A program made the translations under genes and the position numbers. From Bacillota bacterium (GTDB lineage: Bacteria; Bacillota; Clostridia; Oscillospirales; Feifaniaceae): 45,606 nt of DNA. Below, in pieces: positions 21,815-42,583 of the stretch (position 1 is the stretch's first letter; every line of letters begins with the position of its first letter). Under the pieces are notes generated by a model, which was given only the letters and a program-made list of their open reading frames with translations, searched no databases and was not told the origin of the DNA. The stretch covers positions 1 to 45,606 of the forward strand of contig JAUZPM010000010.1 of the NCBI GenBank assembly GCA_030705925.1, read 5' to 3'.

Positions 21815-22245
21815 TGTAACACTCCCTATTCTTATAACGATTAGTTTATATTTTATTATAACTGGATTCAACCCTAAAAGAAACTCTCAGCACATTCCCA
21901 ACATTTTTTATAAGATTTTTTCATGGGCTACAAGTCAAGCGGATACTCCGTAATGAGATCAGTCGGATGTAATATTGGTTTTCAATAAAAAGTCTCTGAT
22001 AATTCATTAAAATATGTGGTGTAACATTGAAAATATAGTCGATTGTGCTATTATTATAATATGAAATGGAAAAATAGGAAAAATCAACCGAATTTTGTTT
22101 TGCACGGGCGGTTTCAGCGTCTATTTGGGCACTGTCTGTAACGTGGATGATTCTCCGTTTAGCAATAATGTACGATTATATATAGAAATGTATTTGATTC
22201 TGTAGGATTAAGCAATCGAAGTTAAATTACTGGAGATGAACAATT
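21815..22245. other. Divergent intergenic region without a recognisable gene
   Basis: These 431 bases separate the GDPD gene from the small-protein/SMC-like pair. I see A/T-rich sequence, a likely plus-strand promoter at 22027-22054 and no convincing coding region. A 26-codon frame at 22061-22141 has no ribosome site. The leader of the small protein would be about 185 bases long, which leaves room for a regulatory RNA I cannot identify. Confidence 0.6.
22027..22054 (+). promoter_or_regulatory. Probable promoter for the small protein and SMC-like ATPase pair
   Basis: TTGAAA (22027-22032) and TATTAT (22049-22054) are spaced by 16 bases; a second TATAAT follows at once (22055 onwards). Moderately convincing. 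Confidence 0.5.
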
Positions 22246-22431
22246 ATGAGTGAAAAAAGCATACAAGAAAAAATAAAGGATAATTTCCTTAATATCATTT
22301 CAAAGTCCTCTAAATTCACTGCAGAAGAAGTTGAAGATATAGAAAATACAATAGATCTACCTCAAAAAGCGGATAAGATGGCTGAGAGCTTACTAAAAAA
22401 TATTGGAGGCATAGCTAATGAAGATACTTAA
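22246..22431 (+). CDS. Small acidic helical protein coupled to the SMC-like ATPase
   Basis: A 61-residue protein beginning MSEKSIQEKIKDNFLN, predicted mostly helical and acidic in the middle (FTAEEVEDIENT). GGAG lies nine bases before the ATG. It overlaps the next gene by 14 bases, and that gene's ribosome site (GGAGG) lies inside this coding sequence, so the two products are made together. I do not recognise a family. By position and size it resembles the small middle component of ABC three-component conflict systems described for SMC-like ATPases, but that is inference from layout, not sequence similarity. Confidence 0.7.
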   Translation: MSEKSIQEKIKDNFLNIISKSSKFTAEEVEDIENTIDLPQKADKMAESLLKNIGGIANEDT

Positions 22432-24847
22432 CCTCCATATCCAAAAGTTCCGTGGAATTATTGATCTTAATTTAAATCTCAATGGAAAAAATGCCGTTAT
22501 TTTTGGGCCAAACGGAGTAGGTAAAAGCGCTGTTGTTGACGCGGTTGATTTCCTTTTGCGTGGTGAGGTTTCGAGGTTAACTGGAGAAGGCACTGGTGAC
22601 GTGTCGACAACAAGGCACGGCCCACATATTGGAAGCCAACCTGAAGAAGCAAAAGTTTCGGCTACAATCCAGAGCATATCTGGTACAACATTCAACGTTG
22701 AGCGTACAGTAGCTCAAAAAGATAGAGTAACAATCGATCCTGCTTTTTCCACCTTGTTTAACGACATGGTTACTTATGCTCAAAGCGGAGCTCATTGCCT
22801 TGCGAGACGCGAATTATTGCGCTATATATTAACGACTCCCGCAACTAGATCTCAGCAAATTCAGATGTTACTTGACATCACGGATATAAAAACTATCCGT
22901 GACGCATTTACAAAACTTAAAAAGACTGCGGCAAGTAACTTGAAAGATACTACGGATTCGCTTAAACGCCATTCATCAGAGTTACTAACAAAAGTTGGTG
23001 CTGATTCTAGCGATCAATTACTTGAAAAAATAAATTCTTTAAGAGATACCCTAGGCGGTAACGCTCTCACGTCTCTTGTTGAAAGTTCTTTTACGAATGG
23101 TCTATTATATAGCGATACAAAAGAAAATACAGAGATAGCTAGCTGCATACGAGGATTAGAGGAACTTGAAAAATATATTTCAACACTTCAACCCGTACTT
23201 CAGGAAAAATTACAAAGTTTACGGGATGCCGTCCGGAAAATTGAAAATGAAAACACTTCTATTGAAGATATAGGTTATATTTCGCTTATAAAATCAGGAC
23301 TTGCGTTACTCGATGGCACAGGTCGTTGTCCGTTATGTTTACATGAGTGGGCGTCTGAGGCCGAATTACGTCAGATATTGCAGGATCGAAAAGATAAGAG
23401 TGAATCTCTATCTGCCATACTTGATACATATCAAAAATCTATAACCAGTTTATTAAATGAAGTTTCAACATATAAAGCTAAAATCGGCATACTTCCACAA
23501 CAGCTTAAAAAATGGGACAATGGTTGTGTAGCTGAATTAGAGAATAAGCTAAAGTCAATTTCGGATATATCTTTTCAGGACAATACCGCATATAAGAATT
23601 TCAACAAAGTTCAAGATCTGGTCGTCGCTGTTATAAAGCAGAGTCCTGATGCGTTTTTAGACCTTATTCAACAGCAGTTGGCGGTTTTACGTCCCTTAAT
23701 TGATCAAAACAGCAAAGCAAAAAGCGATGCTTGGCAAGCGCTTAATGCGGCAAATGAGTTGTATAATAAAATTGGAGAGCTGAATAAAAAGTTGCCAAAT
23801 ATTAAGTTGGCGGCTGAGAAGGCTGCGTTTTTACTTGAAACGTATGACGCTTCTCAAGCAACTGTATTGAACGATTTATTTGCTTCTATCAGCGACCGAT
23901 TTACAGAGTTTTACAGGGAAATGCATAATGATGACGAAAAGCAATTCTCCGCTGTATTAAATAATGATGGCGCGTCGGTGAATATGAGTGTGGATTTTTA
24001 TGGGCACGGTCAATTTCCACCAATGGCGTTTCATAGTGAAGGGCATCAAGATAGTATGGGTATTGCTTTGTTTTTTGCTTTGATGGAAAAACTTACGACA
24101 TCAGAATCAGGACTGGTGGTCCTAGACGATGTTGTGATGTCTGTAGATATAGAGCACAGAAAAAACTTCTGCAGGCTAATAAAAAAGTTTTTCCCAGAAC
24201 GGCAATTTATCATTACGACGCATGATACGGTATGGGCAAAAAATCTAGTCAATGAAGGCGTTGTAGAACGCAAAAACAGTATCCAATTTTTATATTGGAA
24301 TGTTACAGAAGGCCCTATAATGGTAGTTGGGCAAGATGTTTGGAGTACAAGCCGTTTGAAGGCTGACGTGGATATCCATGGAGCATCAGCATTTTTCAGA
24401 AGAGAGATGGAATGCTTTTTTGAAAATGTCTGCGACAAATTGCACGCACGCATTCGTTACAATAACGTTCATAAGTGGGATTATGGTCAATATATGAATG
24501 CCGCATACAAAGAACTGCAAGACCTAATAAAGAAAGCAGAGCAGCAAGCACATGTTTTTCAGAATACAGAGGGACTTAAAAAACTAAGCTCGCTTTCCAA
24601 CGCCTTAAAAGCCCAAATTACAGCGGTTACAGCTGACAATTGGGTAACGAATTCGCTTATACATTTTAATCCAGATTATGAAATATCAAAATCAGAGTTT
24701 TTGGCGGCGGTGGACGCGTTAGAACAATTAAGCCACAGTTTTGAATGTCCTAAATGTAGCGCAATATTATCAGTAACGTATAACGGAGAGACTCCCGTTG
24801 CTTTAATGTGTAAATGTGGCAACTACGCATATCCTCTCAAACAATAA
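22418..24847 (+). CDS. SMC/Rad50-like ABC ATPase with CPLC hook motif and C-terminal zinc ribbon
   Basis: An 809-residue ATPase of the RecN/Rad50/AAA_23 group. N-terminal ATPase half: MKILNLHIQKFRG, Walker A GPNGVGKS at 30-37. Helical arms run from ~160 to ~480, with CPLC at 304-307 in the zinc-hook position. C-terminal ATPase half: signature-like SEGHQDSMG at 540-548, Walker B VVLDDVVMSVD at 567-577 with Asp571 where most ABC proteins have Glu, and H-loop TTHD with His602. A helical domain follows (RREMECFFENVCDKL, ~661-675), then a zinc ribbon at 777-800 (CPKC...CKC). The arms are short compared with Rad50. Such proteins act on DNA or in phage-defence and conflict systems. No nuclease domain is visible in it. 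I rate a defence role plausible, unproven. Confidence 0.85.
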   Translation: MKILNLHIQKFRGIIDLNLNLNGKNAVIFGPNGVGKSAVVDAVDFLLRGEVSRLTGEGTGDVSTTRHGPHIGSQPEEAKVSATIQSISGTTFNVERTVAQKDRVTIDPAFSTLFNDMVTYAQSGAHCLARRELLRYILTTPATRSQQIQMLLDITDIKTIRDAFTKLKKTAASNLKDTTDSLKRHSSELLTKVGADSSDQLLEKINSLRDTLGGNALTSLVESSFTNGLLYSDTKENTEIASCIRGLEELEKYISTLQPVLQEKLQSLRDAVRKIENENTSIEDIGYISLIKSGLALLDGTGRCPLCLHEWASEAELRQILQDRKDKSESLSAILDTYQKSITSLLNEVSTYKAKIGILPQQLKKWDNGCVAELENKLKSISDISFQDNTAYKNFNKVQDLVVAVIKQSPDAFLDLIQQQLAVLRPLIDQNSKAKSDAWQALNAANELYNKIGELNKKLPNIKLAAEKAAFLLETYDASQATVLNDLFASISDRFTEFYREMHNDDEKQFSAVLNNDGASVNMSVDFYGHGQFPPMAFHSEGHQDSMGIALFFALMEKLTTSESGLVVLDDVVMSVDIEHRKNFCRLIKKFFPERQFIITTHDTVWAKNLVNEGVVERKNSIQFLYWNVTEGPIMVVGQDVWSTSRLKADVDIHGASAFFRREMECFFENVCDKLHARIRYNNVHKWDYGQYMNAAYKELQDLIKKAEQQAHVFQNTEGLKKLSSLSNALKAQITAVTADNWVTNSLIHFNPDYEISKSEFLAAVDALEQLSHSFECPKCSAILSVTYNGETPVALMCKCGNYAYPLKQ

Positions 24848-24895
24848 GTTCAGAGGATATTGAGAAAAGTAATCTGAAGCCGGAAGGAGCCAAAC

Positions 24896-25170
24896 ATGGA
24901 GATAACTGATTCGAAACTATATGCCATCCTTGTCGAAAGAAAAAGCGATTTTCTGCCGAACATAAAAAAAGTATACAATTATGTGAAAGACTTACCAGAA
25001 TGCAAGGAACAGATATAATACTAGATTTAGACCAATTCACTGAAGTGTTTCCTGATGTGGTGAAAACAAAAATGTTTTTGGAGCGTGCAGAAAAATATGG
25101 AAATGGAGAGGTGTTCTCCTTACAAAAAAACGCTGTCTGGATTAAACAGGCAGCGGTTTTGATTTTGTAA
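24896..25170 (+). pseudogene. Probable frameshifted small gene downstream of the SMC-like ATPase
   Basis: A 40-codon frame (24896-25018, MEITDSKLYAILVERKSDFL) has a good GGAGG ribosome site. It ends at TAA just where a second frame (from 25000, MQGTDIILDLDQFTEVFPDV) takes over with coding-like sequence. Joining them would need a net shift of two bases (or minus one) near 24990-25010. The second frame then runs into the terminator, whose hairpin yields the tail KNAVWIKQAAVLIL, so its true stop seems lost. I read it as a decayed third gene of the module. Two unrelated short frames are the alternative. Confidence 0.5.
25131..25160 (+). terminator. Intrinsic terminator closing the SMC-like ATPase operon
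   Basis: CGCTGTCTG and CAGGCAGCG form a nine-pair stem with one U-G and a seven-base loop, preceded by AAAAAAA and followed by GTTTTGATTTTG. It stands 25 bases before the promoter of the next gene. Confidence 0.82.
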
Positions 25171-33973: not shown

Positions 33974-36900
33974 ATGTATAACAAATTGAAAAAATTGTTG
34001 GCATTAACCCTTGCGCTGTGTATTGTTATCGGGACGATGCCGGAAACACTGGCGCATTATCTTCCTGTTGCTGATTATGAAGTGTTGGATCCGACAAACG
34101 ATGATAAGGTAGTCGGAACCAGTGATCAGCAGGTAATCGATGATACGACTGAAGCCGAAAATGCGGCTCTTTTGGACAGTGAAAATACAGTACTTGGAAC
34201 AGGATTACCGCCTGTGGTCGTTACGGAAATCGATCCGCAGAATGTATCGCAAAGCGGTGTGCTTCCAAACATAGTCGTCACTGACAGCGTTTTCGAGGCT
34301 TTTGAACTGTACAATACGACAGACTCACCGATTAATATTACACAAAGCTATGACTTTAAATATATTTACGGCACAAAAAGCAAGACAGCAACTATAGGCA
34401 ATATTAACGGGGCTATCGGAAACGGAATTTCCGGTGAGGTTATCATACCGGCGAAAACGGCAATAGAAGTCTGGTCTTATCACAATAATTACGCAACTGA
34501 GCCGGGTGTCAAGGATCTTACCGTAGCCGATTTTAAAAATTATTATGCGGCACTTGGGAGAACGGATAAAAACTATACAGTCGTCGGCTGTAATGACATC
34601 CTTGGATGGAATAAAACTGCTGACCGTGGAATCTGCATCCTTAGTAAGGGAACGACAAATGTGGTCAGCCAATCTGTATACACAGGCAGAAGCAGTATGG
34701 CAGACAAAGGTGTCGATTTTAGATATATGGGCAACAATGCCCTTTCTATGTCTGATGAAAACGGAACTGTCATAACCACGGCTGGCAATGGCACAACCCC
34801 ATCTATAGCACAGGTCAGGTATTTTCAGAAACCCGCTGCAAGCAGCGATACAACAGCGCCTAATTTAACAGACAGCTCGCCGTCGACGGTTGCGAAGGAC
34901 AGCGACTATACATTTAATTTTGCGCTGACGGACAACACGGATTTAAGATACACCGCTCTTTATATAAAACCGAGCAATGCAACAGCCTACGTTAAAAAAA
35001 GCGACAAAGACTTTGTAAAAGATGCAGGAGAAAAGACGTCAGATACTTTATCGGCTAATTTTACATACACACTTTCCGCTGCAGATATAGCTGGGTGTGA
35101 TTATTTTGATTATTACACGGAAGTAGTAGATGCTTCCGGCAATACGACGCAAATTCCGTCATCGACCGTTCCAAAGCGAGTGACGGTGGCAAAACCCGCC
35201 GACACGACCGCTCCTACCGTTACTATCACAAGTCCAACTAACGGTCAGAAATTCGATTTAAAGTTTGACGGTGCTCTTAACGCGACACTCTCGGATGAAA
35301 GTGGAATCAATGCCGAAAGTGGAACCATTTCTATTGATGGAGCTGCACCGATTAAAATACCAGCAACTAATATAACTGATACTTCGCTTACCTATTCGTT
35401 CGCTTCATCACCGCTTTCGATAGGCAACCATACTATTACAGTATCCGTATCCGATACTGCTTCGGTTCCTAACGCTGGGTCGGCTACAGTAACTTTTATA
35501 GTTGAATCTCCAACCTCTGCTATGGCAGTGGATACAAGCGCTGGGTTTGTTTCTTTAAATAAAGCAGGTGATTTCAGCGCAGACGTATATGATACAGCAG
35601 CGTCAAGCAGTGCTAAATTATATTACAGGAGAATAGGTTCACAGGATTATGCCTCTGTTGATATGACTGTGAAATCAAACGATGCAGCAGGAAGCTTAAC
35701 TAAAACCAGTTTTGCTGTTTCGGTTCCATATAATACCTTGAACACACTCGGAAAAGTTGAATATTACATTGAAATTGGCGGCGGAAAATTCAAAACACCA
35801 GTAAAGACTGCAACCGTTCAAAAAACAGCCGATATCGTCTTTACGGACGTTGTTGCAAACTCAATCAATGTCGGCTCGCAGGATGGCTATGATTATGTAC
35901 AGCTTATAAACACAAGTAATAAGCCTATTGATCTTAAAAACTATAAGTTGGCATACAGAAGGAATACATCAGCATGGCTTAACGTCGGCTTAATGGGCTT
36001 TAATAATATTACGAAGTACCCCAAAGCTGAGAATCAGACGGAGCCTGACAGTATCATCGTTAAACCGGGTGAGATCTATGTTTTATGGGTTAAGATAACA
36101 ACCAGCTCAACAGCTCCACTGACAAGAAGCAATTTCGCAAGTGCTTATGGCAATACGATCGATGTTGACCATATACTCGTTGCGGAGCATGCAACAACAG
36201 GCAACCCGGTAAATCCCGGCGATAATTTTTATCTCGTAAATGTTACAGCTAAAACAGAGACAAACTCAATGTGGATTGTGCCGGGCACATCCACTTCCTC
36301 TAATTACGAACAACAGGCGATTGCAAAGCTGCAGTTTTCAGGCGACCAGGTTGCAAATGAGAATACCGCGGCAAAACTCTGGTACGATTCAAATCTCGGA
36401 TATTCGAACTCATTTGCCGGACTAAAAAAACTGACGCCCGGCTATCTTAATCAGTGGAAACAGATTGAAACTGATTATTCCGATTACTCAGCGCCTGTGT
36501 TTGGTGAATTTACACCGCAGGCTTCAATCGACAGGACAACAGATACCAGCACGCCATTTACTCTGACTGTGAACGTGTCAGATGATAAAGATTTGAGAGC
36601 GGGAAGACTTTATTACAGAAGTATAGGTGACTCCACCTACAAAATGCTTGAATCTGATTATGTTGAAGCACGTGATGGCAAAGGGACAACCTTAAATTCA
36701 TCTATTACATTTACCATCCCGGAAACTGATATTATTACAACAGGCAGGCTTCAGTATTATTTTGAGGCGCTTGATGCAGGCGGCAATATATCGACACTGC
36801 CGGCTGATAAAAACAAACCATTCGAAACGAAAGTGCTGTTGAAACCCTCAGCTTTTGAAATGCCTGAAATTATTATTACTGAGGTTGAACCAAATCCGAG

Positions 36901-39900
36901 CGGCACAGATGTTTTTGAGTTCGTCGAGATCTACAATACGACGGATCATGATATCGATATGACCAATTATCAGCTTAGGATTGCAAACAGCTTTGAAAAC
37001 AATACATGGTATACGAACAATTGGGCATGGGAAAGTACGGCAAGTAAAATGCTCGGCGCAAAAGAAATGATGACGATCTTCTTATATAATGCCGATGCAT
37101 ATAATGCGGGCTATAAATGGGCGACTGATGAAGACAAGTCAAATACATGGGAGGAATTCCAGACATTCTACACGTCTTCGATCCCAGTGGATAACCGAGT
37201 TCTTGCACCAGCATTCAGCGATACTACCGGAGCCGCTATATCGGGCGCAAATAACCTTACAAACGGCGCAGGGGTCAAAGCTGTTCAAATAGTTAAAAAA
37301 GTAAATGGAAATATCGACGTTGTATCTCAGGCAAAATACACAGCAACTGATAGCAGCAGCACTTCGCAGGTTGTCAACGGGTTTTCCATCAACTATATTA
37401 CCTTCCCCGGCTGCGATCCGATAAACAATTATGACGCGTTGATGATAGACTATAAAGCAATACCGTCTCCTAACGGACTGCTTGATGTACAGAAAATGTC
37501 AGACAGTGACGACACGACTCCTGTTGTTACTATGCAGGAACCGACGCAATACAGACAACCGGATGAGACGACATTCACTGTAACTGCGCAGGATAACAAT
37601 ATAAGATATGCCGCGCTGTTCTATAAAATGGATACCGACACTATGTATAAAACCGTCATGATGACAAAGGTTGACGGTACAAATGATTATACATGTGACG
37701 TTCCGGCTTCTGATCTGAAAAAATCCAAGAACATCAGATATTTCTATGTTGTTTCCGACGGCATAAATTACGCAACCGCGCCTTATGTTGCATTTGATCC
37801 ATATTACCAGCTGGTAGACGACACAGAAGGCCCACGCGTGACTTCGTTTAAGCCGGATGGATTGTTCGAAGGCGAATATTCAGGTTATGTTGAAGTCAAC
37901 TATACGGATAACGCCGGGGTAGACAAATCGTCGATAAAATTCATATTTGACGGTAAGGATGTTACCTCGAAATGTATAATCAGCGAAAGCCAACTGAAAT
38001 ACAAGGTGGATATTTCGGAAATCAGAAGATATGACATGACACTAACGATCGGCGATAAGTTTGGCGGACTTGTTGGTAGCACTTATCCCAAACAGAATAT
38101 TGCAACTCATAACTTAAGTTTTACGCTTACACCTGTAGGAGTAAATCTGGAACCTACTAAAGGGATCATTCATGCTCCAATGAAAAGTACGGTTAATACT
38201 CAGGATATGACTGTCGCTGCAGTGGTCACGGGAAGTGACGATGCACCTTCTCTGTTTTACGGATTAGATGACGAAGCACCTCACAACAGGGTGGCGATGT
38301 CTCTCGATAATATCAGAAAGGGAGATAACGCGAAATTCTATAAAGGTGTTATTCCTTCCGGTGCACTAAAAAATGCGACTAAGGTAAAATATTATATTAC
38401 CGCCGGTGAAATGCGCGCACCAACAAGTGAAGGCACGGTATATGAAACCAAGATATTTCCGAAATCACCTACGCCGGAGCTGATGATCACAGAGGCTTTT
38501 GTCAATCCGGAGGGACTCGACGATCACGAATATGTCGAGGTTTATAATACAAGCGATAAAGTGCTGAATCTTAAGGACTACAAGCTGATGTATCAGGGAT
38601 ATGTCAAAACCAATCCTAATGACATACGTGAAAATATAATTACTGACGATTGTTATCTCGATCCTGGCGAGGTTGCTCTTGTATCATTTATAACAACACA
38701 GGCAAAAGCGATCAATCTAGACGTTGATATGTTCAAAAAGAAACTTGGCATACAGAATTCCAATGTAAAAGTCGTCCAAGTTTATGCGGACAGTTCTGAG
38801 GTCAAGACACAGTTTAACCTAAACAATACAGGCATTAAGCTTATTATGCTTGCGAAAGCTAACGCCCATGCGGGTGATTATCTTTGCGTAGCAACATACA
38901 ACGATCAGGTAAACGAAGGCATCAATGACGCAATGAATGGGTGTACGGTCAACTGGGGACCACCTTCCGACGGTACTATCAACCTTACAAAAACCGATAC
39001 GGGAGTAAAACCGACTCCTGGAACAATAAACTATAAACAAAAAGTGCTCGATTACGATGATACTTTAGCGCCTTACCTGATACATCAAAATTTGGAAACC
39101 CAAGGTGAGGACACAAAGGATATAACCTTAAAAGCAAAGATATTTGACGAGAATGTTCTTCACTATTCCTCTGTTTTTTATAGGACATGGACTACAAAGG
39201 GTTTTGTCGAAAAACCGCTTACACCTGTTGAAGGCGAGGAGAACACGTATTCTGTAACGATACCTTATAAAGATGTTAAATATTCTAATACCCTTGAGTA
39301 CTATTTCACAGCGACTGACGGCTTGCATACAGTTACACTGAACAGCCAGTCGGGTCAGCCGTTCACTGTCAATTTCAGTGACAAACAGGCACCGCAGATC
39401 ACAGATTACAAGCCTGAGAATTACTATTATTATGAGAAGTCCTATACCCCGAATATAGACATTAAATACAAGGACGATTCAGGCGTAGACACAAGATCAG
39501 TTCGCCTGCTTGTAAACAATGAAGATGTCACTTCGAATGCCAAAATATCTGATACAGGCGTCACATATACACCTAACGGACCAATGCCTGCCGGAACATA
39601 TCCCATTCATTTCGAGGTTTGCGACAATTCTGCAAATAAGAATAAACAGGTCGTGGATTCACAGTTTACGCTGGGAGACGGAGCACAGCTTAACAGTTAT
39701 CACGGTGAGATGCACAGCCATACCGGATTTTCAGACGGAAAAGCAGACCCTTCAGTCGCTTTCCAGTATGCCAGGGACGTTGGAAAACTTGACTTTTTTG
39801 CCGTGACGGATCATAACGATATGACCTCGCCTGACGAACTTGCGCAAGGAATCCAGATGTCAAAAGACATCTATAATCCTGGACCGGGAGGATTTATAGC

Positions 39901-42583
39901 GTTTTACGGAATAGAGATGTCCTGGACAGGATGGTATGGGCATTTTAACACGTTCAACGTTGATTGGGTCGAAAACGATCAGGAAACAACGATGCGTGAC
40001 TATCTTGACCGGCTGCGTGAAAGTCCCGGCAGTTTCGCACAGTTTAATCATCCTGGCGTAGTATGGGGAGATTTCCTTGATTACAGCTATTTCACTCCTG
40101 AAAATGACGATAAAGTAATAATGTATGAAAACAAACGTGTACAGTCTGACAATGGCTATTATCGCGCTTTGACAAAAGGCTGGCACCTAGCTGTAATGAC
40201 CAACGAGGATAACCACTCCGCAAACTGGGGCATTGCAGATCCTGCAGTATCTGTTGCTCTTGCTCCTGCTTTGACAAAAGACAATCTTATTGAAGCATTC
40301 AGAAAGAGCCGCACATATATAACTTCAAATCCCAGTTTGTCTGTTGATTACCGTATAAACAACAATGAGATAGGATCTCGCCTAAAAAACCCGGACGCAT
40401 TGAATTTCAGCATAAAAGCCAGTGATGCTAAAGGCTTGGCTCTCGGAAGCATAAAGGTATACGCTGAAGATGTTGTACAGGTCTATAATCAGAACTTTGA
40501 TACCCCGACAGCAGATGTAAACTTTACGCTGCCTGCACAGTACAAATACTATAATGTAAGTATTACAACTAAAACGGGTCAGCATTTAATAACATCCCCG
40601 ATTTGGGTCGAACGTCAGAATGCAATTGAAGTCTCGAAAATGGATCTGAAGTTAAGCCCGAGCGCTGACACACCGCACCGTGTCATTACAACCCTCAGGA
40701 ATAACACGGATAATAAAATGACGAATATAAAGGTAACATATTACAGGGGCGACGATAACGGACTGACCTTAACGGGCGATCTGCCGCAGTATTATCAAGA
40801 TCTTAACCAAAACGGCTCATCAAGTGTAAAGCTTGCAGATCCGCTTGCAGTGATGAATGTTGACGGACTCGATTCTAAGCAGACAGTAGATGTAACAGCA
40901 GATATTCCCGAAGTTCAGGATAAACGGAGGATATATGCGGTTGTATCCGGAGAGTATAACGGAAAAACATATTATGACATCAGTTATGTTTTGACGTCGC
41001 AGCTCTATATCACTGAAATGCAGGTAACCAGCAAAGAACAGCAGTTTAGTAATTTCTCTTTAAAGGATGCGTTTGGTTTCTTTGAAGTTTACAATAACAG
41101 CCATACCGACATCAATCTGAAGGGATATAAATTCAATTATTGGGTATCGCAGGGCAATACTCCTACAGGATACGATATATATACAATAACCGGAAACTTA
41201 AGGCTGCCAGCTAAGACAGCAAAAGTAATCTGGGTCAAAGATTATAAATCCAAAGTGGCACCAAGTGTTACAATCGATGATTTTAATAAAAAATACGGTA
41301 CGAATCTAAAGCCAGTCGATGCTAACGGCGATGGAGACGTTTATGTAGTATACGGTACGCCGTTATCTACCGGATCAAAACGTCTTGATGTTGCAAATTC
41401 AAGCGGGTTTGTAATTTCAGCGGTTCAGTATGGATTCGGACCGGATGTAAACGGCGATAATACGGTCGACAGAAGTATAGATTTTAAATACAGCGTTGAT
41501 GGCAACAACACCTGCACGTCTACTAAATTAGACAACATGGCATTCCCGTCGCCAGGCAGTGTAAAACCGGAACAGGTTCCTAGCGATGCAAGCGATTACA
41601 GTTTGAAAGCCATAAAAGTATCCTACGGCAACGGCTCATCTAATGTTTCTATGAGCGACCTGTCAACAAGCTACAGGTTTAAAGTGCCGGAGGGGGCAAA
41701 GGCTGTTGCTGTTACGCCTGAAGCTGTGGATGCATCTCATAAACTACGGGTCAACGGGGTTGTTCAGAGCAGCGGTCAGACATCAAAAGAATATACGCTT
41801 TCAAGCACGTCCGGCTGTACTGTTTTGATCGAAGTACTCGATGAAAATAATAATCCTGCAGCAAACTATACGGTATCTATTGGTACAGGTGAACTCAATA
41901 CAGGATCTGACACAGGGACTGACAATGGCGCTGGTACGCCTGGCGGAGGATCATCAGGTGATACTGGGGGTGCTGATACCGGAACAGGCAATGGCACCGG
42001 GTCGGGCGGCGACAATAATCAAAGTCCAACCGACAAACCAAATGCTGAGTTTACTGATGTTTCAGGACATTGGGCGGAAACGGCAATAGGATATATGTCT
42101 TCAAAAGGCATTATTAAAGGCTATGCTGACGGGACGTTTAAGCCAAATGATAACGTAAAGCGCGGAGATTTCATATTAATGCTCATGCGCGCGTTTCCGA
42201 GCAATACCGCATCGACAGATAGTTTTGCCGATGTTCCATCTGACAGCTATTATTACGAAGCAATAACTCAAGCTAAAGCGCTTGGAATTGCAACAGGTTA
42301 TGACGGGAACAAGTTTGATCCGAATGCTGAGATCACCCGTGAAGATATGTTTGTATTATATGCAAGGGCACTTGAAAAGCTTGGCACTATCGACAAAACA
42401 AAGGTCAGCGGCAGTTTCGCGGACAAAGATAAAATAGCTTCATACGCTGTCGAGGCGATAGATTTGCTGAACGGTAACGGCATCATATCCGGCTCGGATA
42501 ACAGCATAGACCCTACAGGAGCCGCTACAAGAGCTCAAGTAGCTCAAATGCTTTATAATTATTTTAATTCGCTTGTTTCTTAA
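33974..42583 (+). CDS. Giant SLH-anchored surface protein with five lamin-tail-like domains and a CehA/McbA-like PHP metallohydrolase domain
   Basis: A 2869-residue secreted protein. Signal peptide at 1-28. Lamin-tail-like domains start near 79, 619, 965, 1501 and 2342 (e.g. EFVEIYNTTDHDIDMTNYQL, EYVEVYNTSDKVLNLKDYKL). Between them are Ig-like modules (DTTAPTVTITSP; LYYRSIGDSTY). A PHP domain spans ~1908-2120 with metal-ligand candidates His1914-Ser-His1916, Asp1946-His1947, Glu1981, His2026 and His2081, so the site looks intact. A Gly/Thr/Asp-rich linker (~2640-2690) leads to three SLH units (2691-2869; FTDVSGHWAETAIGYM). It should be a wall-attached phosphoesterase or related hydrolase. Last gene of the importer operon (28 bases after nanE, GGAGG site), suggesting it processes or binds the polymer whose product is imported. 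Substrate unknown. Confidence 0.88.
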   Translation: MYNKLKKLLALTLALCIVIGTMPETLAHYLPVADYEVLDPTNDDKVVGTSDQQVIDDTTEAENAALLDSENTVLGTGLPPVVVTEIDPQNVSQSGVLPNIVVTDSVFEAFELYNTTDSPINITQSYDFKYIYGTKSKTATIGNINGAIGNGISGEVIIPAKTAIEVWSYHNNYATEPGVKDLTVADFKNYYAALGRTDKNYTVVGCNDILGWNKTADRGICILSKGTTNVVSQSVYTGRSSMADKGVDFRYMGNNALSMSDENGTVITTAGNGTTPSIAQVRYFQKPAASSDTTAPNLTDSSPSTVAKDSDYTFNFALTDNTDLRYTALYIKPSNATAYVKKSDKDFVKDAGEKTSDTLSANFTYTLSAADIAGCDYFDYYTEVVDASGNTTQIPSSTVPKRVTVAKPADTTAPTVTITSPTNGQKFDLKFDGALNATLSDESGINAESGTISIDGAAPIKIPATNITDTSLTYSFASSPLSIGNHTITVSVSDTASVPNAGSATVTFIVESPTSAMAVDTSAGFVSLNKAGDFSADVYDTAASSSAKLYYRRIGSQDYASVDMTVKSNDAAGSLTKTSFAVSVPYNTLNTLGKVEYYIEIGGGKFKTPVKTATVQKTADIVFTDVVANSINVGSQDGYDYVQLINTSNKPIDLKNYKLAYRRNTSAWLNVGLMGFNNITKYPKAENQTEPDSIIVKPGEIYVLWVKITTSSTAPLTRSNFASAYGNTIDVDHILVAEHATTGNPVNPGDNFYLVNVTAKTETNSMWIVPGTSTSSNYEQQAIAKLQFSGDQVANENTAAKLWYDSNLGYSNSFAGLKKLTPGYLNQWKQIETDYSDYSAPVFGEFTPQASIDRTTDTSTPFTLTVNVSDDKDLRAGRLYYRSIGDSTYKMLESDYVEARDGKGTTLNSSITFTIPETDIITTGRLQYYFEALDAGGNISTLPADKNKPFETKVLLKPSAFEMPEIIITEVEPNPSGTDVFEFVEIYNTTDHDIDMTNYQLRIANSFENNTWYTNNWAWESTASKMLGAKEMMTIFLYNADAYNAGYKWATDEDKSNTWEEFQTFYTSSIPVDNRVLAPAFSDTTGAAISGANNLTNGAGVKAVQIVKKVNGNIDVVSQAKYTATDSSSTSQVVNGFSINYITFPGCDPINNYDALMIDYKAIPSPNGLLDVQKMSDSDDTTPVVTMQEPTQYRQPDETTFTVTAQDNNIRYAALFYKMDTDTMYKTVMMTKVDGTNDYTCDVPASDLKKSKNIRYFYVVSDGINYATAPYVAFDPYYQLVDDTEGPRVTSFKPDGLFEGEYSGYVEVNYTDNAGVDKSSIKFIFDGKDVTSKCIISESQLKYKVDISEIRRYDMTLTIGDKFGGLVGSTYPKQNIATHNLSFTLTPVGVNLEPTKGIIHAPMKSTVNTQDMTVAAVVTGSDDAPSLFYGLDDEAPHNRVAMSLDNIRKGDNAKFYKGVIPSGALKNATKVKYYITAGEMRAPTSEGTVYETKIFPKSPTPELMITEAFVNPEGLDDHEYVEVYNTSDKVLNLKDYKLMYQGYVKTNPNDIRENIITDDCYLDPGEVALVSFITTQAKAINLDVDMFKKKLGIQNSNVKVVQVYADSSEVKTQFNLNNTGIKLIMLAKANAHAGDYLCVATYNDQVNEGINDAMNGCTVNWGPPSDGTINLTKTDTGVKPTPGTINYKQKVLDYDDTLAPYLIHQNLETQGEDTKDITLKAKIFDENVLHYSSVFYRTWTTKGFVEKPLTPVEGEENTYSVTIPYKDVKYSNTLEYYFTATDGLHTVTLNSQSGQPFTVNFSDKQAPQITDYKPENYYYYEKSYTPNIDIKYKDDSGVDTRSVRLLVNNEDVTSNAKISDTGVTYTPNGPMPAGTYPIHFEVCDNSANKNKQVVDSQFTLGDGAQLNSYHGEMHSHTGFSDGKADPSVAFQYARDVGKLDFFAVTDHNDMTSPDELAQGIQMSKDIYNPGPGGFIAFYGIEMSWTGWYGHFNTFNVDWVENDQETTMRDYLDRLRESPGSFAQFNHPGVVWGDFLDYSYFTPENDDKVIMYENKRVQSDNGYYRALTKGWHLAVMTNEDNHSANWGIADPAVSVALAPALTKDNLIEAFRKSRTYITSNPSLSVDYRINNNEIGSRLKNPDALNFSIKASDAKGLALGSIKVYAEDVVQVYNQNFDTPTADVNFTLPAQYKYYNVSITTKTGQHLITSPIWVERQNAIEVSKMDLKLSPSADTPHRVITTLRNNTDNKMTNIKVTYYRGDDNGLTLTGDLPQYYQDLNQNGSSSVKLADPLAVMNVDGLDSKQTVDVTADIPEVQDKRRIYAVVSGEYNGKTYYDISYVLTSQLYITEMQVTSKEQQFSNFSLKDAFGFFEVYNNSHTDINLKGYKFNYWVSQGNTPTGYDIYTITGNLRLPAKTAKVIWVKDYKSKVAPSVTIDDFNKKYGTNLKPVDANGDGDVYVVYGTPLSTGSKRLDVANSSGFVISAVQYGFGPDVNGDNTVDRSIDFKYSVDGNNTCTSTKLDNMAFPSPGSVKPEQVPSDASDYSLKAIKVSYGNGSSNVSMSDLSTSYRFKVPEGAKAVAVTPEAVDASHKLRVNGVVQSSGQTSKEYTLSSTSGCTVLIEVLDENNNPAANYTVSIGTGELNTGSDTGTDNGAGTPGGGSSGDTGGADTGTGNGTGSGGDNNQSPTDKPNAEFTDVSGHWAETAIGYMSSKGIIKGYADGTFKPNDNVKRGDFILMLMRAFPSNTASTDSFADVPSDSYYYEAITQAKALGIATGYDGNKFDPNAEITREDMFVLYARALEKLGTIDKTKVSGSFADKDKIASYAVEAIDLLNGNGIISGSDNSIDPTGAATRAQVAQMLYNYFNSLVS

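Follow-up and report, generated by a model that had tools for sequence, protein, structure and literature searches.

A sparse, mobile gene pair of bacteria and archaea encodes a small acidic protein and an LmuB-like ABC ATPase with a predicted RNase domain

What does a 61-residue acidic protein do when its gene runs into that of a large coiled-coil ATPase, and is the pair a unit in its own right? The locus lies in a Bacillota bacterium contig (JAUZPM010000010.1), of which the whole 45,606 nt stretch analysed is called the window. A sequence-only reading had proposed that the two genes, followed by a decayed third, make up an isolated module and a candidate conflict system. Both frames are present as read (Table 1), with a 14-base overlap between the end of the small frame and the start of the ATPase frame. 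The surroundings are likewise as described: the flanking genes encode a GDPD-family protein and a HAD hydrolase, and a terminator-like hairpin follows the unit. Terminator-like sites number five in the region against 2.0 expected. The claim that the unit has its own promoter fared less well, as the promoter scan gave 10 sites in the region against 12.2 expected by chance, and the match at 22027-22054 is no better than chance. No further defence gene was found among the window ORFs scanned. A further product of the window, encoded at 33974-42583, is an S-layer protein of 2869 aa that contains three Lamin Tail Domains (LTD) along with a cadherin-like domain.

Table 1. Features of the locus, in window coordinates.
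Feature	Position	Strand	Support
Small acidic partner protein, 61 aa, net charge -5	22246..22431	+	Equivalents in 22/22 loci
Coiled-coil ABC ATPase, 809 aa, SMC/Rad50/LmuB-like core	22418..24847	+	SMC_N, AAA_23, and LmuB matches
Zinc hook C304-P-L-C307	23327..23338	+	C304, P305, and C307 invariant in 20 homologues
C-terminal domain of the ATPase, residues 626-809, predicted RNase effector	24293..24844	+	Invariance of R, E, and H
Remnant 1 of HD-CE/Hsp90-like ATPase gene, residues 1-33	24896..24994	+	82% protein identity to L002
Remnant 2 of HD-CE/Hsp90-like ATPase gene, residues ~476-508	24994..25083	+	88% protein identity
Intrinsic-terminator-like hairpin, 9 pairs, then T-run	25131..25155	+	

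The larger protein has the Walker A, signature, Walker B, D-loop, H-loop, and hooked coiled coil of an SMC/Rad50-like ABC ATPase. It matches the Pfam families SMC_N (1.4e-18) and AAA_23 (6.8e-14), and PDB profiles of SMC and Rad50. The CPxC at 304-307 sits in a long helical insert. The signature position reads S540-E-G-H-Q-D-S-M-G548, and the Walker B is L569-D-D571. The motifs named in the sequence-only reading, i.e., the CPLC hook, SEGHQDSMG, LDD, and the CxxC/CxC cysteines, are all there and are kept in distant homologues; the hook, the SE, the LDD, and H602 are found in 20/20. Among the PADLOC defence profiles, LmuB is the closest in 20/20 family members (best 4.9e-33), and MAD3 is second in the same 20/20 (best 5.1e-32). 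For the window's protein the LmuB match covers residues 1-612 at 5.7e-27 and is remote (93 bits). AAA_13 (PF13166) is absent among the 18 Pfam families that match the ATPase at E<=1, and at E<=1e-40 nothing in the window's genome matches PF13166. The ATPase is 83-85% identical across all 809 residues to those of its closest relatives, L001 and L002, with dN ~0.08, dS ~0.7-0.95, and dN/dS ~0.1. That is, it is under purifying selection.

The small frame and the ATPase are a genuine pair, as an overlapping acidic frame is found in 22/22 homologous loci, drawn from Clostridia, Alphaproteobacteria, Haloarchaea, and one viral contig (L010). In every locus the frame encodes 53-75 aa, shares 4-20 bases with the start of the ATPase gene, and specifies a net acidic protein (-4 to -19). 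A small overlapping frame likewise occurs in a Desulfosporosinus contig. Compared with L001 and L002, the small protein shows dN ~0.25-0.29 with dS near saturation; it evolves faster than the ATPase, yet it is constrained too. Searches with PADLOC, Pfam, and NCBIfam profiles gave it no match beyond noise level. The acidic, helical character of the protein and its translational coupling suit either an inhibitor or a DNA-reading subunit. The ATPases of two haloarchaeal loci, L032 (657 aa) and L041 (654 aa), lack the C-terminal domain and are still paired with the small gene. The ATPase core is thus the most likely target of the small protein.

The proposal of a module therefore stands in that the two genes are conserved, mobile, and together in 22/22 loci; the sequence-only reading had counted non-conservation of the small frame in relatives, or core-gene status of the ATPase, as evidence to the contrary. 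The ATPase is not a core gene: in the phylum, 1/398 sampled genomes has a match at E<=1e-40, the window's own, and 1/83 in the class of Desulfosporosinus, the one already known, the phylum-wide search having scored two candidates per genome, so that the counts may be low. Among other relatives, 0/58 have a match at E<=1e-40. Homologues ~24-31% identical over the whole length are found on plasmids of Alphaproteobacteria and Haloarchaea (27 plasmid records), and one is on the viral contig L010; the phage records searched hold no homologue. A search for an empty site in family members gave no synteny in the short loci used. The pair is thus a sparse, mobile, two-gene module in bacteria and archaea.

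Within ~6 kb of the pair, 9 of ~20 loci adjoin restriction, BREX, Abi, or DarT genes, an uncontrolled raw count. The neighbours are a type IIG R-M gene (L002), an AlwI endonuclease (L050), BREX-5 pglX and pglZ, one on each side (L007), DUF499/DUF1156 genes (L031), AbiE (L033), a restriction helicase (L034), GmrSD (L035), DarT and RES (L036), and an N6-methylase together with a Cap4-like protein (L037). DUF499 is the domain by which BREX-related systems are defined (PMC12839542). In other loci the pair lies amid relaxase, T4SS, integrase, or transposase genes.

Several loci have particular arrangements. On the Halorhabdus tiamatea plasmid pHTIA (L007:2024-10667), the pair is set between pglX and pglZ inside a BREX-5 operon, on the same strand and almost touching pglZ, which suggests a BREX-5 add-on or alternative subunit. 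On a Pseudohalocynthiibacter plasmid (L009:8508-12230), a 1240-aa TPR protein with PIN-TPR-GreABC (PF20698) is encoded directly downstream of the ATPase. In Desulfosporosinus the AlwI-family restriction endonuclease gene is directly upstream of the small gene, and the ATPase gene is split across contig ends at residues ~509/510 (L050:1-1545, C85; L003:1-903, C88), which suggests an inserted repeat or an assembly break. A Phaeobacter copy (L044:5998-8421) has a frame change near the C-terminus and has lost the ribbon cysteines, and the plasmid copies H18 and H22-H24 look broken or partial; the ATPase gene may thus often be inactivated.

These data bear on whether the pair serves defence at all. 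A DNA repair or plasmid-maintenance ATPase of the Rad50/RecF kind, with a small regulatory subunit, would account for the Rad50/RecF/SMC profile matches and for the several copies in conjugative-plasmid backbones beside relaxase and T4SS genes. However, the sparse distribution, the high divergence, the defence-gene neighbours, and the broken copies on several plasmids argue for another role. An Mre11-like nuclease partner is also lacking: no Mre11/SbcD gene adjoins the ATPase in the window or recurs as a conserved partner in the other loci read. We consider a non-defence role quite improbable.

The third gene is next. In L001, L002, and L003 an intact gene for an 822-823-aa protein lies downstream of the ATPase, at ~50 nt in the first two and ~300 nt in the third; its product combines an HD-CE domain (PF24391, 5.2e-48) with a GHKL/Hsp90-type HATPase_c_3 domain (1.4e-10). 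The short gene of the window, previously taken to be frameshifted, is what two deletions have left of it, and a frameshift is ruled out as the cause of the decay. The stretch 24896-25083 consists of two pieces of the gene (reference L002:8477-10945), residues 1-33 and ~476-508 of the 822-aa protein. In blastn alignments the pieces join at base 24994, with ~1335-1338 bases lost relative to L002/L001, and a further ~0.9 kb is gone after the second piece. Elsewhere in the host genome there is nothing of the gene beyond the two remnants.

Could the system nevertheless be a three-gene one, with the HD-CE/Hsp90-like protein as effector or regulator and the window copy dead or dying? The position of the third gene close behind the ATPase in the relatives, and of its remnant here, would fit. 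Against this, the gene is missing from all alphaproteobacterial, haloarchaeal, and viral loci examined, and HD-CE/Hsp90 genes are found without the ATPase on other plasmids. Moreover, the window's pair is intact and under purifying selection, in a comparison that cannot date the deletion. Among loci with readable downstream DNA, the third gene was seen only beside the three close clostridial relatives. Since it is intact in these and absent from the other families, we take it to be an accessory, as judged from these sequences, and not part of the core. A three-gene system is improbable in our estimate. The third gene was also rejected as sole effector in general, since in loci with readable downstream DNA it accompanies only clostridial relatives, and HD-CE/Hsp90 genes are found elsewhere without the ATPase; the suggestion that the decayed frame had been the system's general effector falls with it.

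If not the third gene, what is the effector? The earlier view that the locus has no recognisable effector nuclease is probably mistaken, as the C-terminus of the ATPase has a RloC/PrrC-like R-x3-E...H pattern. The domain contains an R661-x3-E665 helix, N745-x3-H749-x-N751, and a zinc ribbon, C777xxC780...C798xC800. Across 19 C-terminal sequences a glycine, R661, E665, H749, and the four ribbon cysteines are invariant, and these R/E/H residues suggest catalysis. In RloC, the triad is Arg-X3-Glu-X36-52-His; anticodon nuclease activity depends on every one of these residues and is regulated by the zinc hook (PMC2610378). In HEPN domains, the residue right after the motif arginine, at H-4 in Rx4H, is typically N, D, or H (PMC3710099). 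In the ATPase family, N or H stands four residues ahead of the invariant His with no adjacent arginine; the RloC proteins compared likewise have N/D/H at H-4 with no adjacent arginine.

Attempts to align the two families were less telling. In an unguided hmmsearch, the best short match placed the R-x3-E helix on the R-R-x-L-E helix of RloC proteins L059 and L065, with LRRFLEYYAAETC (L038) opposite IRRILEYYFRQLC (L059), a suggestive position that is not significant. With hhalign, the C-terminal family scored 18.7 against RloC C-termini (probability 0.94%, not significant), barely above the highest score among 60 column shuffles (17.9). Pfam gave neither a significant match nor a HEPN hit for residues 626-809, and against PDB the C-terminal family profile found only weak zinc-ribbon and spurious matches. 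AlphaFold predicts helices at 646-675, 689-713, 717-738, and 758-773, with H749 preceding the last (pLDDT <50). This layout around R/E/H would be compatible, at low confidence, with HEPN, a superfamily marked by a four-helix fold with an Rx4-6H motif or the RloC-type variant; the pLDDT is 49 for the whole ATPase and 47 for the C-terminal domain. We infer that an RNA-cutting domain is probably part of the ATPase itself. Because the hhalign score is not significant, the E-to-H gap (65-87) is longer than that of RloC, and the AlphaFold models are poor, RNase activity is put forward as a hypothesis of moderate strength.

The module can also exist without this domain, since the two short haloarchaeal ATPases (L032:5995-7968 and L041:5995-7959) keep the small gene while the whole R-E-H domain and ribbon are missing; no remnant of the domain lies downstream of either. 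These copies bring in a further reading, a reduced Lamassu/ABC-3C system. Here an LmuB-like sensor and an LmuC-like small subunit would have lost LmuA or would borrow it in trans, and the C-terminal domain would serve docking or nucleic-acid binding. LmuB is, as noted, the closest defence profile throughout the family, and it is a protein of ~650 aa, exactly the size of the two short ATPases, that in many members bears a Zn hook (PMC10586767). Yet no LmuA-like gene adjoins the pair in the loci read, the small protein is only ~60 aa and has no PADLOC match, and the conserved R/E/H residues point to catalysis. In addition, the Walker B is LDD, whereas an E to Q change is reported for LmuB in a review (PMC10586767). 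We regard a reduced Lamassu as unlikely, if less so than the alternatives above.

What we favour is a mobile two-gene defence module made up of a DNA-sensing ATPase, a RloC/PrrC-like RNase in cis, and a small regulatory subunit; as a whole, we give this slightly better than even chances. An effector in cis is preferred because the invariant R-x3-E...H has the order and spacing type of RloC/PrrC. The mechanism is modelled on the Lamassu and RloC literature (PMC10586767, PMC2610378, PMC3710099), as follows. The large protein would be a dimeric, zinc-hook ABC ATPase of the RecF/LmuB type that senses aberrant DNA, i.e., ends or hairpins of invading or damaged molecules. Its C-terminal helical domain would be a HEPN-like RNase of the RloC/PrrC kind, with R661, E665, and H749 as putative catalytic residues and the zinc ribbon as a cap. 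When DNA is sensed, the heads would close, driven by ATP, and set free the RNase, which would cleave tRNA or other RNA and bring the cell to arrest. The small acidic partner, which translational coupling links to the ATPase and which is made before it, would bind the ATPase core and either keep it silent or aid DNA reading. Close relatives carry the HD-CE/Hsp90-like gene downstream, an add-on that has been deleted here with the two-gene core left intact.

In a broader form, the proposal is of a so far undescribed two-component defence system of bacteria and archaea that fuses an LmuB-type DNA sensor to a RloC-type RNase, places the fusion under a dedicated acidic 60-residue subunit, can plug into BREX-5 operons, and takes up HD-CE/Hsp90 as an option. 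This we consider plausible but somewhat short of an even chance. No description of the pair was found in the literature searched, a search outside which the chief survey of conflict systems with ABC ATPases falls. The module is likely to escape notice, since the profile libraries used rate the ATPase as no more than a distant LmuB or an ATPase of the repair type. If the proposal is correct, one family would link the DNA-sensing LmuB ATPases and the tRNA-cutting RloC proteins, which are usually treated apart, and a small cassette of bacteria and archaea would be at hand for testing the control of an SMC-like sensor by a tiny subunit. The loci also show a single conserved core that acquires and sheds an HD-CE/Hsp90 partner, with the loss caught here as a stub.

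How does the pair compare with known systems? It resembles the DndD/CxC ABC ATPase-DndE pairs in coupling a coiled-coil ABC ATPase to a small partner (PMC10853773). DndE, however, is larger and has two RHH domains, whereas no PADLOC profile matches the small protein here, and the hook motif differs, being CPxC here. The likeness to MADS lies in the second-best PADLOC match. MAD3 belongs to a multi-gene methylation-associated system, and its models are of 374-427 aa; no other MADS genes stand beside the ATPase in the window or the annotated loci read. The HD-CE and HATPase (GHKL) proteins, a remnant here and intact in three relatives, fall outside the conserved core.

With Lamassu/ABC-3C, the pair shares an LmuB-like zinc-hook core, a small companion gene, a sparse distribution, and a place in defence islands. 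It differs in having no LmuA effector gene beside the ATPase in the window or the homologous loci read, a companion of ~60 aa unrelated to known profiles, an extra C-terminal domain of 190 residues, and an LDD in place of the Q-substituted Walker B. ABC-3C membership, which had been suggested, calls for a third, effector component, and none was found in the loci read. With RloC/PrrC, it shares a CxxC zinc hook in the coiled-coil insert of an ABC ATPase (RloC), a DD Walker B, the C-terminal Arg-x3-Glu...His order with N/D/H at H-4, and a similar size (658-897 aa). On the other side, the window's ATPase is not matched by Pfam AAA_13, the E-H gap is 65-87 against 36-52 in RloC, the core is nearer LmuB, the C-terminal homology is not statistically proven, and there are an extra C-terminal zinc ribbon and an obligate small overlapping gene. 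By its sequence, then, the pair is neither RloC, as defined by Pfam AAA_13, nor Lamassu/ABC-3C as defined, for want of LmuA; by analogy, it may work like Lamassu/ABC-3C, like RloC, or like both.
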